Notes under the pieces: model-generated | The model's database searches: none | Seen by the model: only the letters and a program-made list of their open reading frames with translations | What the model was told of the DNA's origin: nothing | Translations under genes and position numbers: made by a program | NCBI RefSeq assembly: GCF_008326425.1 | Contig: NZ_AP018929.1 | Coordinates: 882,875-946,874 of the forward strand | Direction: 5' to 3' | Origin: Sulfuracidifex tepidarius | GTDB taxonomy: Archaea; Thermoproteota; Thermoprotei_A; Sulfolobales; Sulfolobaceae | DNA length: 64,000 bases | Shown: piece by piece, positions 54,085 to 60,078 of the stretch | Layout of the letters: every line of letters starts with the position of its first letter | Position numbering within the stretch: position 1 is the first letter of the stretch

Positions 54085-54801
54085 TTGCCAAGATGTTCTA
54101 TTATAGTTAACTTTTTTTTAAAAGTTCTCAATTCTCATATGCCTCAGAGTTTAAAGCCTAAGAGCATTAAATTATTGTATTATAAAGAGAAGAAAGATGA
54201 TAAGAGAATTTTTAGACAAGTAGTGACATTAATAGAATATGAAGGACAACCGTCAAAGATAATCCAATGGAGTCAGTTAATAGAAGGCGATCCTTTCGGT
54301 GAGCACGAGATAACTTATAGGATAAACTACGGGTCTGAAAGCGTACTTAGAAGTTTTAAAGTGAAGTATTTAGGAAGGGAAGGGGATAAGCATAGGGTTT
54401 TGATTAAGGAAGGCGTATCTGGTTGTGGAACTAAGACTAAAAAGATAGAGAATAAGGAGGTGTTGATACCAGACAAACTATACCAACCTTACCCTTTGCA
54501 ACAAAAAAGTGAAGAAGGGAAAGATCCGAATCCGATAGAATGTGAAATATGCCAAGTACTAGTTCCAATATTATGTAATTTACTTGCAACTAAGGTAGCT
54601 AGCGCGATTGCATGTGACGAAGTATGTGAAGTGGATGTCTGTATAATATTCATTGAGGATCCGATTATATATGCTATATGTTCAGTATCTTGCGATATAA
54701 TATGCAATGAGGTTTTGCAGATTATTCTACGAATTGGTATCCAAACAGCTTGTACGGTAGGTGGTGAATACGTATGTGAAAAAGGTGGATTTTGTTGCTA
54801 A
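54085..54801 (+). CDS. Halocin-C8-like archaeocin precursor
   Basis: This 238-residue protein has a soluble N-terminal domain (about residues 25-140) and a Cys-rich hydrophobic C-terminal domain (about 150-238) with Cys at 153, 156, 164, 177, 181, 186, 199, 203, 207, 223, 231, 237 and 238. The opening CxxC-x7-C and the closing C-x5-C (CEKGGFC) match the mature halocin C8 pattern (CSAC-x7-C; C-x5-C), and the domain has the same size (about 80). In halocin C8 the N-terminal part of the same precursor gives immunity. The start could also be the ATG at 54139. No clear signal peptide. It is followed after 41 bp by a membrane protein (54843) likely involved in self-protection. A decayed copy lies at 47621. 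Confidence 0.75.
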   Translation: MPRCSIIVNFFLKVLNSHMPQSLKPKSIKLLYYKEKKDDKRIFRQVVTLIEYEGQPSKIIQWSQLIEGDPFGEHEITYRINYGSESVLRSFKVKYLGREGDKHRVLIKEGVSGCGTKTKKIENKEVLIPDKLYQPYPLQQKSEEGKDPNPIECEICQVLVPILCNLLATKVASAIACDEVCEVDVCIIFIEDPIIYAICSVSCDIICNEVLQIILRIGIQTACTVGGEYVCEKGGFCC

Positions 54802-55454: not shown

Positions 55455-55662
55455 CAAGCTAAATTATTATCATCCTTGTATAAGTAATGATAAAGTAAAA
55501 GCAAAGAAGTTGTTCTACTAAAAATTAGTTTAGTTCTTGCTCAAATGTATTATAGACTTTTTAATATTAAGAAACGTTTATATCCCTTATTTATTAAAAC
55601 TTTTTAGAATAAACGAGAGTTTTAAAAAAAGCTGATTACACGTAATATATACTGAGGCGATA

Positions 55663-56102
55663 AACGATAGAGTTTGAAGATCTTACACAGAAATTTGATA
55701 TTATAGAGGATGTCGCAAAAAAGAGAAAGCAATATATAGATAGATTAAATAAAAGTAATAAGGTAGAATTTGAAATTAGAGATGATATACAGATAGGAAA
55801 CTACTCTTTCGCATTTGTGAAAGCTAAAGACGGGAAAGTAGGATATGAAGTCATAATTAAGGAAAAGGATAAGGGGTATCATTTCGGCAGAAGAAAATAA
55901 GGGTCGCATTGTAGTATTAAATATTTTGGAGAATATTGAAAGAGAAGGAGATAAGAAAGTATTTACTGCTGAATCTTATTTATTAAGAGAAAATAAGGTA
56001 ATTAAAGTAGTATCTGGAAGATATGAAATAAAAGGAAACGCACTTTCAAACGTTTTGAGTAATTATGAACCAGAAAAAATAGAGATAAAAAAGGTGAAAT
56101 AA
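55663..56102 (+). pseudogene. Frameshifted gene for a soluble Lys/Glu-rich protein
   Basis: One frame gives IEFEDLTQKFDIIEDVAKKR and GNYSFAFVKAKDGKVGYEVI; a frame change near 55875 continues with VVLNILENIEREGDKKVFTA and EIKGNALSNVLSNYEPEKIE to a TAA at 56102. No start codon is found in frame at the beginning, so at least two lesions exist. It stands directly before the short Cys-rich frame at 56104, as an N-terminal domain stands before a Cys-rich core in the C8-like precursor, so it may be the remains of a related precursor. Confidence 0.5.
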
Positions 56103-56103
56103 G

Positions 56104-56226
56104 ATGTGCATAAAGAATGATCCACCGGATCCAGATGCTTCTTATGTTTGTTTTTATGAGTGTTTAGTATATGACTGTGCGGGTAATAATGACATAGAAG
56201 TTTTAGACGGAGTTAACATGCACTGA
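56104..56226 (+). CDS. Short Cys-rich ORF (40 aa), possibly longer if frameshifted
   Basis: An ATG one base after the stop at 56102 opens 40 codons with Cys at positions 2, 16, 20 and 26 (YVCFYECLVYDCAGN). In the next frame the sequence continues with CTDYCIGLANVYTTLSRYVF to a TAG near 56320, so an intact version could be about 70 residues with six or more Cys. Composition and location suggest another small disulfide-rich secreted peptide. Not recognised as a known family. Confidence 0.4.
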   Translation: MCIKNDPPDPDASYVCFYECLVYDCAGNNDIEVLDGVNMH

Positions 56227-56263
56227 TTACTGTATAGGTTTAGCTAATGTTTATACAACATTG

Positions 56264-56742
56264 TCAAGGTATGTTTTTGAGTACTCTAATACTGTTTTGA
56301 AATATATAAATAGATAGAGTTGATTCTATAAATGCAGCTGTAATTAAAAGAGTACAACCTATTATCAGAGGTTTGGTATAATTATTCCTAGTTTTGAATT
56401 TTTGACCAGCATAAGCTATGAAACTAAAGCCAAGAAATTCAATCGGACCATGAGGTAAGATACCTATAAGACCTACTATTAATCCAAATTTAAATACTAT
56501 CTCGCCTACATATAGGGCAATAGTGAAACCGATAATCTTCTGTATAATTTTATTTCCTACTAAGAAAATTATTAATGCAAAAGTAAAATTTACTGTTATT
56601 ATGTGAAAAAGCAGTGTATAATCTGGTACTGGAAGTTCATGCACTATTGCGGGTTTCTTAAAACCTATTAAGTAATCTATTGGTAAACTGACAGTAAACC
56701 AATCCAGAATGTTAAATAAATGTATAGTATTTCTCTATTCAT
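56264..56742 (-). pseudogene. SpoIIM/DUF95-like membrane protein with one frameshift
   Basis: The main frame (56264-56644, 126 codons) has four membrane helices and the SpoIIM/DUF95 hallmark GILPHGPIEFLGFSFIAYAG. Upstream, an ATG at 56742 opens MNREILYIYLTFWIGLLSV in another frame, and a single base change near 56685-56700 joins the two into a normal-length protein of about 160 residues. The ATG lies one base after the stop of the M48 gene, so it is the last gene of that operon. DUF95 proteins occur in circular-bacteriocin clusters, where they act in maturation or export. A sequencing error would make the gene intact. Confidence 0.65.
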
Positions 56743-56743
56743 T

Positions 56744-58231
56744 CTATAGTACACCAAGATAATATCTTAAGAGAAAAAGCGCGAGTAGAGAAACGCTTAA
56801 TATTCCATATATAATGAACGTAATTAAAAATACCTTTAGACTAGTTTTTACATCGATAAGGAAGGATTTAATTACCAAAAATATCAGAGTAAGTATGGAT
56901 AAAAATAATATAGCATCAAGATAAAAATAACTATGAGCAATAACTTCTATTGAGCTTAGAATTGCATACATTCCAGATATAAGAAAGGAGAAGTTCGCTA
57001 TACCTTTCTTTGTTCCCTTATAATATCCCTTTACTATAGGTAAGAAAATTAATCCTAAAAGTAGGTCTACCACTAAAGATCCGGAAAAGTAAAGAGGAAA
57101 CAAAAATACTAAAGATTTCAACGAAACTATTTGTAATGATAGTACCACGGAGTTAAAAATGGACAATAAAATAGGTATCTCCCAATATCCTAATGAGGAG
57201 AGCGGGTCCCCAGTCTTTAACGCATATCTCGTTGAAGTATGAGTAATACGACTCGATAAAGGTAATTCTGTGGTAGAATTAAAATCTTTGCCAAAACTTT
57301 CTCTTACGGACGTTAAGAATTCCTCATAGGCCTTCTTGCCAACTGTATTGAACGCAAATGCATCTGCCTTTGATTCTTCAATTCTAATTAATGATATAGA
57401 CAAAAAATAGCTAATAATCGTAATTAAAACTAACTTCGCTACTAAAGGTAAGCTTATAGTTATATTAGATAAGTTAGGAAACATGGCAATTATTAGGAAA
57501 TGTATTGTAGAGAGTGTGATAGAGAGATTTAGTGTCTGTAGAATTAAATTTATTAATGCATGGTGTTCTTTAGCATGGCAGAGTTCATGTGCCTTTATAG
57601 ATTGACTTGAATTTTCCATTATAATTATTAATGTTTTAGAAAAACCATGCCTAGAAATAGTAGGTATTTCAAATGTTACGCCACCTACTTTAAATGGAAC
57701 GTTTACCAACTTTACATCTTTAGGTTTTATATACTTAAAAGGAGGCATCCTAGACACTATTAAAGCGACCGCTAAGAGAGAAATAAGAAAAGACAAGATA
57801 GTGTAAATTACGAAACCTACGGGAGTGTAAAGGGAGGGAATTCTGTAAGCGGAAGTTAACATAAAAATGGTAAATAAAATGGATGCTTCAATAAAGAATA
57901 TTTTAAGATGAATTAATACTGAATTATAAATAGAATCACTATTTATTTGATTAGTATTAACTATATTAGTCCGATTAGATAACTGACGATTATATAAAAG
58001 TAAAGCTTTAACAAAGAATATTAACATTATGAGGGGAGCAAATATGGTAATTATAGCAAATGATAAGGTTAAGTATGTAAAAATATCAAAAAGATGGACA
58101 TTTTCCTTTCCTATAGTATCTCTTATTACTAAGGATGCAATATCAAGTAAAATTAATATAATTAAAGAAAGAAAATAATGTTTCTTCTTATTATTAGTTA
58201 TTATAAAAAAATTTCTTTTCATTACAATCAC
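56744..58231 (-). CDS. M48-type membrane metalloprotease
   Basis: This 495-residue protein has the zinc motif HELCH (about residues 215-219) and the downstream EESKAD (about 285-290) giving the third ligand, the M48 (HtpX/Ste24) arrangement. About ten membrane helices lie on both sides of the catalytic part. The GTG start follows the TGA of the 105-residue peptide gene without a gap; an ATG nine bases later is the alternative start. The order peptide, protease, DUF95 protein suggests it cleaves or matures the peptide, or protects against it; that is inference. AT-rich like the whole island. Confidence 0.8.
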   Translation of the reverse strand: MIVMKRNFFIITNNKKKHYFLSLIILILLDIASLVIRDTIGKENVHLFDIFTYLTLSFAIITIFAPLIMLIFFVKALLLYNRQLSNRTNIVNTNQINSDSIYNSVLIHLKIFFIEASILFTIFMLTSAYRIPSLYTPVGFVIYTILSFLISLLAVALIVSRMPPFKYIKPKDVKLVNVPFKVGGVTFEIPTISRHGFSKTLIIIMENSSQSIKAHELCHAKEHHALINLILQTLNLSITLSTIHFLIIAMFPNLSNITISLPLVAKLVLITIISYFLSISLIRIEESKADAFAFNTVGKKAYEEFLTSVRESFGKDFNSTTELPLSSRITHTSTRYALKTGDPLSSLGYWEIPILLSIFNSVVLSLQIVSLKSLVFLFPLYFSGSLVVDLLLGLIFLPIVKGYYKGTKKGIANFSFLISGMYAILSSIEVIAHSYFYLDAILFLSILTLIFLVIKSFLIDVKTSLKVFLITFIIYGILSVSLLALFLLRYYLGVL

Positions 58232-58549
58232 TCAGACTAAACCTACACCAGTACCCGCTAGAGCTAATCCCGCACCAAATAATATATCACTCACAGCTAC
58301 ACTCGTACCTGCTACAGATATGGTATATCCTGCAGTAGCGGCATACCCGGCCACTGGTCCGGCCAGCCCTATTCCGATACCGCCTAGTGCTGAACCTCCT
58401 GCCGTGTATAACAATGAGCCCATTATTATACCTGCTATCATTATTTGGAACGGAAATACTGCTAGCATTGCTAATACGAACACTGATAAAATGGCTACTT
58501 GGGTTTCATTACTTAATTTGTGCATATAACCTTTTGACTTTATTATCAT
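58232..58549 (-). CDS. Gly/Ala-rich hydrophobic peptide (105 aa), candidate circular-bacteriocin-like precursor
   Basis: The first 18 residues are polar and basic (MIIKSKGYMHKLSNETQ), then one very hydrophobic helix (about 19-38), then about 65 residues of Gly, Ala, Val, Ile and Leu with no charge except one Asp (GGSALGGIGIGLAGPVAGYA; SVAGTSVAVSDILFGAGLAL), ending in a free hydrophobic Val. Circular bacteriocin precursors likewise consist of a leader and a 58-70 residue hydrophobic core. It heads an operon with the M48 protease and DUF95 protein. A GGGGA ribosome-binding element and TATA-like AAAATATAATAG precede the start. Alternative start at Met9. Confidence 0.75.
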   Translation of the reverse strand: MIIKSKGYMHKLSNETQVAILSVFVLAMLAVFPFQIMIAGIIMGSLLYTAGGSALGGIGIGLAGPVAGYAATAGYTISVAGTSVAVSDILFGAGLALAGTGVGLV

Positions 58550-58670
58550 CTTTATTCCCCTATTATATTTTGGCTTAAACGGCTTTTTTTAACTCTCGAT
58601 CATGTTAAAAAGTCTTACTAAATAAGAAGTAATCATTTATTTTCCATTTAAAATTAATACTTATAATAGT

Positions 58671-58912: not shown

Positions 58913-60078
58913 ATGGAATTTAGAGTTTTTCAGAATAGGTATGTTAGACTTTATCTTATTCAACACGCTATACAACCATATTTTACTCTTTCTTTCATTT
59001 TTCCAGCATACATATTTTTAATAAGTAAGAACGTTATTTTAATTGGTGTTCTTTTTAGTATTGCATTCGTACTAGGACATCTTGCAGTAATTGCTGGTTT
59101 TTTAACAGATTATATTGTAAATACTAGAATATATTACTTTATCCTTTCGATTCTAAGTGGATCAACGCTTGTTAGTCTTTCTTTATTTACTCCAATTCTA
59201 TAAGTTTTATCTTTGTAATTTTCCTAATCCTAGGTGTAATACATACATTTAAGGAGACTAATCATAAGAAAGTGTTAAGACACATTGTAAACTCGTATAA
59301 AGATTTCAGAAATATTTGGGTTTTAACTCATAGTATTAGAACATTAACGGATTAGTCTACTCTACTTTTCACTTTCCATAGTAGGTTTAAAAGGCGTATT
59401 ACTAATTTTAGGGTTTTACATGCTTTTGATTCACACTCCCATAATTTTCCTTATTAATCATCCAAAAGGTACTGAGAATGCTAAGATAATCTTTAAGATA
59501 ACGTTATCTTTATTAAAAGGTAAAAGAGGTGCTCAATTTTATTTAATAGATATTTTTCAGTAATTTCTTCAGGGGAATAGTTCCAGTATTTATAGGTGCA
59601 TTGTCTTTATCCTCTTCTTTCTTGGTTAATTACACAATTTACTTCGCAGCATTTATCCTTTATGATACCATTTATCTAATAATTATTAATAGAAATTTTA
59701 AAAGGGATAGTAATATATATATACGGTTTTACTTTTTAGAGGTCTCATTCCTTCTTTTATTCTATTTACTATAGTCCTCTTTCCTCCTTCATTATATATA
59801 ATTCCATTGATTATCTATTCCATAATTCTAATATTATTTTATAACCTATTTCTTCAAAAATTCAGTTTAACTTATCTAAGGAAATTTACGCTACTTACTT
59901 AGGCCTTAACGCAACTTTTGGCAGCTTATTCTATACAGTAGGAAATTTAATACTATAATATGTAGAAATGACCTTAGGTATAAAAAGTGTTATTGAAGTG
60001 GCATCTGCAATATCAGCTTTTTACTCTATAGCTATATCATATATTTTTAGAGATATATTTGAAACTAATAAGAAATAA
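58913..60078 (+). pseudogene. Broken MFS-type transporter
   Basis: The first frame (58913-59203) encodes the first three helices of an MFS protein (NRYVRLYLIQHAIQPYFTL; VLGHLAVIAGFLTDYIVNTR, a motif-A-like loop). Later pieces with hydrophobic helices follow in shifting frames to a TAA at about 60078, with many stops. The length of the reconstructed gene is about 390 codons, near that of the intact transporter at 52544. Probably a lost exporter of the neighbouring peptide system. Confidence 0.65.

Follow-up and report, generated by a model that had tools for sequence, protein, structure and literature searches.

Does a three-gene operon in the heat- and acid-loving archaeon Sulfuracidifex tepidarius encode a bacteriocin-like peptide together with the enzyme that matures it? 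The operon lies in a 64,000-nucleotide stretch of the genome (NZ_AP018929.1, positions 882,875–946,874; hereafter the window), where genes for a 105-residue peptide, a 495-residue M48 protease and a SpoIIM/DUF95 protein follow one another on the minus strand. The original prediction was of a candidate archaeal operon of circular-bacteriocin-like make-up. What our analysis bears out is a conserved operon of precursor-like peptide, M48 protease and SpoIIM, with a peptide that is conserved in its N-terminal and variable in its C-terminal part, and with signs of conflict.

The three genes and their state

The features discussed below are, with window coordinates:

58587–58610, minus strand: perfect palindrome TTTTAAC-N10-GTTAAAA, candidate operator, 38–61 bases upstream of the peptide start
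58232–58549, minus strand: precursor-like peptide, 105 residues; its six homologues in alignment A2 all adjoin the protease
58235–58414, minus strand: presumed core, or mature part, formed by peptide residues 46–105, its boundary inferred from the identity contrast between the G013 a and b copies
56744–58231, minus strand: M48-family membrane zinc metallopeptidase, 495 residues, candidate leader peptidase/maturase (PF01435, E 3.4e-8)
57575–57589, minus strand: HELCH motif of the protease, with zinc ligands H215 and H219 and catalytic E216; HExxH is present in 7/7 Sulfolobaceae proteins and in distant relatives
56689–56742, minus strand: N-terminal piece of SpoIIM, 18 codons from a coupled start (MNREILYIYLTFWIGLLS, resembling residues 1–18 of a G013 SpoIIM), after which the frame ends
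56264–56680, minus strand: remainder of SpoIIM/DUF95 in another frame (resembling G013 SpoIIM residues 22–152), including a 126-residue ORF from GTG at 56644

The peptide gene is a real ORF, as had been proposed, and the protease ORF begins directly after it. A spacing of zero to one base was claimed for all three genes; it holds for this pair, but the third ORF as listed (56264–56644) lies 99 nt from the protease, and coupling there is at best a property of the ancestral start (ATG at 56742).

Three regions can be distinguished in the peptide. Residues 1–20 are charged, residues 21–45 are hydrophobic and leader-like with a conserved LA[IVM]xP...xMIA pattern, and residues 46–105 are Gly/Ala-rich, hydrophobic and variable. 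This layout of leader-like part and hydrophobic core fits all homologues. In the two G013 peptides, residues 1–45 are 78% identical and the remainder 39%. The hydrophobic end is not strictly uncharged as first described: one Asp follows residue 20, and relatives carry one to six charged residues in this part, with a net negative charge. No Pfam or NCBIfam model matches the peptide. Its structure is predicted as four helices in a poor model (pLDDT 51), with which a Foldseek search returned no structural match. Weak peptide matches in other Sulfolobales (E 0.003–0.1) were dropped as noise-level, most of them lying in unrelated longer or stop-containing frames.

The protease was correctly recognised as an M48 enzyme. 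It scores 34 bits against PF01435 (cut-off 20.3) and combines HExxH with a third ligand, a glutamate in a downstream helix; H215, E216, H219, E286 and D290 are invariant in the alignment. With HtpX, Ste24 and Oma1 it has in common its membrane embedding, the HExxH of zinc peptidases and an ExxxD farther downstream. It is longer than these, has an additional hydrophobic stretch at the C-terminus and a conserved R.(T)H...R..L..GD...ExP motif, and falls far below the NCBIfam cut-off for HtpX. The structure model (pLDDT 66) has long helices at the N- and C-terminus and gave a weak match to Ste24 (E 1.8). In G013, the last 170 residues of the two proteases (L027 10327–11829 and L028 9402–10928) are identical and the preceding parts 56–64% identical, a pattern as after gene conversion.

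The third gene retains the LPHGPIEF motif and a weak PF01944 match, in agreement with its SpoIIM/DUF95 assignment, but the window copy is frameshifted relative to its relatives at 56689–56680, which leaves a 126-residue fragment, and scores below the family cut-off (E 0.0024). Several relatives exceed the cut-off of 26.9 bits, at 30.9, 36.6 and 57.9 bits; the copy in G020 operon a is also below it. Elsewhere SpoIIM is truncated in the second G013 locus and broken in G021. The window copy is probably non-functional, and the window operon is therefore probably impaired, unless an intact SpoIIM at 2,243.9 kb serves in trans. That gene belongs to a paralogous operon (L033 7880–10254, genome about 2243.9–2246.3 kb) in which peptide and protease are frameshifted and SpoIIM is intact, the mirror image of the window operon, in which SpoIIM is the one broken gene.

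Occurrence and gene order of the operon

Relatives of the protease were sought in 229 genomes of the class and 398 genomes of the phylum. Within the class they occur in 5/229 genomes, all Sulfolobaceae, from three genera. Matches to the peptide profile fall in these five genomes too, directly upstream of each protease, apart from a few at noise level (E 0.003–0.006), and a search within the family places the SpoIIM subfamily in these five as well. Wherever they occur in these Sulfolobaceae, peptide, M48 and SpoIIM adjoin in constant order (seven operons plus decayed copies). Besides the window, the loci comprise two each in G013 and G020, one each in G004 and G021, and a decayed paralogue at 2244 kb of the window genome. 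The homologous clusters that the original prediction called for are found at seven other Sulfolobaceae loci (one decayed) and, with the order unchanged, in two genomes from another class. Because homologous operons share this order at other loci, the three-gene unit is more than chance. The opposite outcome, that no peptide homologue would adjoin a protease or DUF95 gene, can be excluded, as every homologue above noise stands directly upstream of a protease.

The distribution is patchy. The window genome contains further operon remnants (258 and 476 kb), and the operon is absent from both other genomes of the genus examined. Scans of genome contigs for the protease, with a single sequence and with an alignment, gave no confirmed relatives. 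Searches of plasmid and phage collections for relatives of the window protease came back empty, as did plasmid searches with the G537 protease and SpoIIM.

Distant proteases, 23–30% identical to the G537 protein (alignment A8), were found in two families of another class among the 398 phylum genomes. They keep HExxH, RxxExxAD and the C-terminal R.(T)H...R..L..GD...(W)ExP motif. Two of these genomes, G537 and G531, repeat the gene order of the window, with M48 proteins that are about 25–30% identical. The G537 set comprises peptide, protease and SpoIIM (57.9 bits); the peptide ORF there starts MRNEMRRDMAIAGLALAVILLMPTIVIPL and runs from charged to hydrophobic to proline, as does the window peptide. 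G531 encodes an N-terminally charged hydrophobic peptide, whose frame looks shifted near the C-terminus, followed by protease and SpoIIM (36.6 bits). Less complete sets are a protease end with SpoIIM in G477, a decayed second locus in G537, and a frameshifted peptide with protease in G560. Distant M48 relatives in G374, G237, G354, G319 and G265 stand without SpoIIM.

We looked for further genes common to the operons. No fourth gene is shared, and none of the small cationic hydrophobic kind expected of an immunity protein was found. A scan for ORFs with Walker A and ABC signature motifs was empty in the flanks of 7/8 loci; one ATPase-like ORF lies 2 kb from G020 operon a, outside the operon.

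G013 and G020 also carry a second type of operon, in arrays at L027 3081–9474, L029 2952–8762, L063 4952–10180 and L064 5119–7680. Its precursors share a 43-residue leader (80% identical, MITTVV..EETEIDIKKAIK.SLLMTFFLVA.PINSIMLTQAI) ahead of hypervariable C-termini (35%), and are followed by a membrane protein of 350–420 residues and often by one of about 139 residues. Another precursor type in these arrays starts MSQQITIK. The idea that this is a divergent M48 operon was rejected, as profile comparison detected homology for 0/3 parts, with small alignments and low power; from its sequences we regard it as an analogue only.

Rates of evolution and genomic setting

In the two close pairs that could be compared, the peptide evolves faster than protease and SpoIIM, with the change mostly C-terminal. 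Between G020 operon b and G004, dN/dS is about 1.6 for the peptide (2.20 after residue 45), 0.54 for the protease and 0.11 for SpoIIM. The corresponding values for operons a of G013 and G020 are 1.0 (1.10), 0.33 and 0.12. The nonsynonymous excess of the peptide over SpoIIM is significant in both pairs (Fisher p 3.6e-4 and 1.0e-4, respectively). Taken alone, the excess of the peptide's dN/dS over 1 lacks significance (bootstrap 0.58–7.4 and 0.47–2.5), and the faster evolution could reflect relaxed constraint instead.

The palindrome upstream of the peptide is dedicated to the operon. An exact copy of TTTTAAC-N10-GTTAAAA occurs once in the 2.56-Mb genome; G013 has two, one ahead of each operon, and G020 has one, ahead of operon a. 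Base composition predicts about 0.03 (window genome) to 0.15 (G013) copies per genome, and a reversed-pattern control gave 0 matches. In G004 the sole match falls within the coding sequence of a gene, and we regard it as fortuitous.

The operon has a GC content of 0.31, compared with 0.444 for the window. About 1.5 kb past the SpoIIM end is a gene (54085–54801, plus strand) for a 238-residue protein with a Cys-rich C-terminal part. It scores 18.2–21.3 bits against TIGR04449 (cut-off 24), and from its sequence is likely a member of the halocin C8 family. A second such copy, outside the window at genome 980574–980825, exceeds the cut-off with 25.7 bits, and halocin-C8-like matches are present in 6/31 Sulfolobaceae genomes. 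Two decayed regions were noted beside the operon. Broken frames at 55650–56260 (plus strand) end in a short Cys-containing stretch, MCIKNDPPDPDASYVCFYECLVYDCAGNN, and may be what is left of a second gene for a Cys-rich peptide; at 58913–60078 (plus strand), a decayed multi-membrane-spanning gene spread over several frames is perhaps a transporter relic.

Proposed function and relation to known systems

We suggest that this is a horizontally spreading antagonism operon, encoding a secreted bacteriocin-like peptide, its own processing protease and a SpoIIM protein for export or tolerance, and put the probability of this reading at about 0.55. The N-terminal ~45 residues of the precursor would act as a membrane-targeting leader and the C-terminal ~60 as a diversifying hydrophobic effector. 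The membrane-embedded M48 protease would mature the peptide by cleaving off its leader within or at the membrane; if the product is a ring, the protease might also carry out the ligation. SpoIIM would aid release of the mature peptide across the membrane, confer immunity on the producer, or both, and the peptide probably acts on the membranes of close relatives. Cleavage, secretion, antagonism and immunity are here inferred from several observations: the invariable adjacency and order of three subfamilies confined to the same genomes and the recurrence of that order in a second class (G537, G531), the nonsynonymous excess of the peptide over SpoIIM, the invariant catalytic residues of the protease and the unique palindrome. 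The low GC content of the operon, its absence from the two congeners examined and the decayed copies in the genome point the same way, as do the halocin-C8-like neighbour and the parallels with bacterial circular bacteriocins in SpoIIM, LcyD and M48. Weighing against antagonism are the non-significance of dN/dS above 1 by itself, with relaxed constraint as an alternative, the absence of a transporter or separate immunity gene from the operon, and the several distant M48 relatives without SpoIIM. On balance, the operon plausibly works like a bacteriocin system.

A stronger form of this proposal is that the product is a head-to-tail cyclised bacteriocin: M48, with or without help from SpoIIM, would cleave off the leader and link the freed N-terminus to the hydrophobic C-terminus. 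In every homologue a leader-like part precedes a hydrophobic core of about 60 residues that carries few charges and whose last residue is hydrophobic or small, as has been reported for circular bacteriocins (PMC8659200). In bacterial clusters SpoIIM is the constant partner, regarded as class-defining, and deletion of the SpoIIM gene lcyD traps mature leucocyclicin Q in the cells (PMC6131525, PMC8659200, PMC13289728). M48 peptidase genes occur in a few such clusters (PMC8659200, PMC6131525). Hydrophobic C-termini are common in membrane peptides, however, no saposin-like fold is supported, and circular-bacteriocin families were matched neither by the window peptide at E<=1 nor by five homologues at E<=10. 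We find cyclisation unlikely. The operon has neither an ABC transporter nor a separate immunity gene, and its precursor matches no circular-bacteriocin model, so we advise against classing it with the circular bacteriocins.

The same genes could instead form a module for envelope function, signalling or membrane homeostasis, in which M48 proteolysis, with SpoIIM, sets the level of a small membrane protein and antagonism plays no part. M48 proteins elsewhere serve in membrane quality control, and the peptide profile matches nothing antimicrobial. For archaeal SpoIIM relatives, a part in remodelling membranes or forming vesicles has been suggested (PMC5898192). A patchy distribution, many decayed copies and a fast-evolving peptide beside conserved partners are atypical of housekeeping, and we rate this explanation as unlikely, much on a par with cyclisation. 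More improbable is a self-acting membrane toxin of the toxin-antitoxin or abortive-infection type, with M48 and/or SpoIIM as antidote. The hydrophobic peptide does adjoin a protease that could in principle degrade it, in an island-like location, but its C-terminus is its most variable part, a self-acting toxin needs neither diversification nor a leader-like N-terminus, and the protease has no phage or plasmid copies among the collections searched. The least probable account, and a very improbable one, makes the peptide an ordinary membrane-spanning protein or a pilin-like subunit that has nothing to do with the adjoining genes. The peptide has two to three hydrophobic peaks, and its best PDB match is an archaeal pilin, though not a significant one (E 0.16). 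This explanation is already disfavoured by the linkage, since the peptide is never found away from the protease; a conserved class III signal-peptide cut site is also absent from the alignment.

How does the proposed antagonism operon relate to known systems? With the circular bacteriocins of Firmicutes (leucocyclicin Q, circularin A, AS-48, garvicin ML) it shares a short precursor laid out as a putative leader and hydrophobic core, the SpoIIM (PF01944) partner, clustered membrane proteins and, in a few of their clusters, an M48 peptidase gene. It differs in being archaeal, in having M48 as a constant and immediate neighbour, and in lacking an ABC transporter, a small cationic immunity gene and a precursor sequence match. 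Halocin C8 (TIGR04449) is also an archaeal antimicrobial, with a likely relative in the operon's low-GC island, but it is Cys-rich and unrelated in sequence to the window peptide; we know of no M48 or SpoIIM partner for it. The sulfolobicins SulA/SulB of Sulfolobus acidocaldarius and S. tokodaii are likewise membrane-associated antimicrobials from small operons of Sulfolobaceae (PMC10117752, PMC3718332). Compared by description only, they differ in requiring two toxin proteins and in their reported signal peptides (PMC8628083). We found no description of a peptide–M48–SpoIIM operon in the literature searched, from which the main archaeal antimicrobial-peptide survey (mBio 2019, doi 10.1128/mBio.00715-19) is excepted.

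In circular bacteriocins the leader protease and cyclase have yet to be identified, an acknowledged open question, and the protease has been postulated to be encoded outside the cluster (PMC8659200, PMC6131525). The operon offers a candidate maturation protease for this unsolved step. Protease, SpoIIM and precursor-like peptide make up the whole operon, which has been kept over a large evolutionary distance, and the role of the protease is therefore directly testable. A bolder generalisation, which we hold to be rather unlikely, is that Thermoproteota make diversifying antagonistic peptides, cyclised or otherwise matured by M48, with a minimal three-gene set in which M48 is both leader peptidase and cyclase. 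If true, M48 would be the enzyme that is still to be found for circular-bacteriocin pathways in bacteria. The operon would also lengthen the very short list of antagonistic proteins of Sulfolobales, on which, up to 2021, sulfolobicin was the only characterised entry (PMC8628083).
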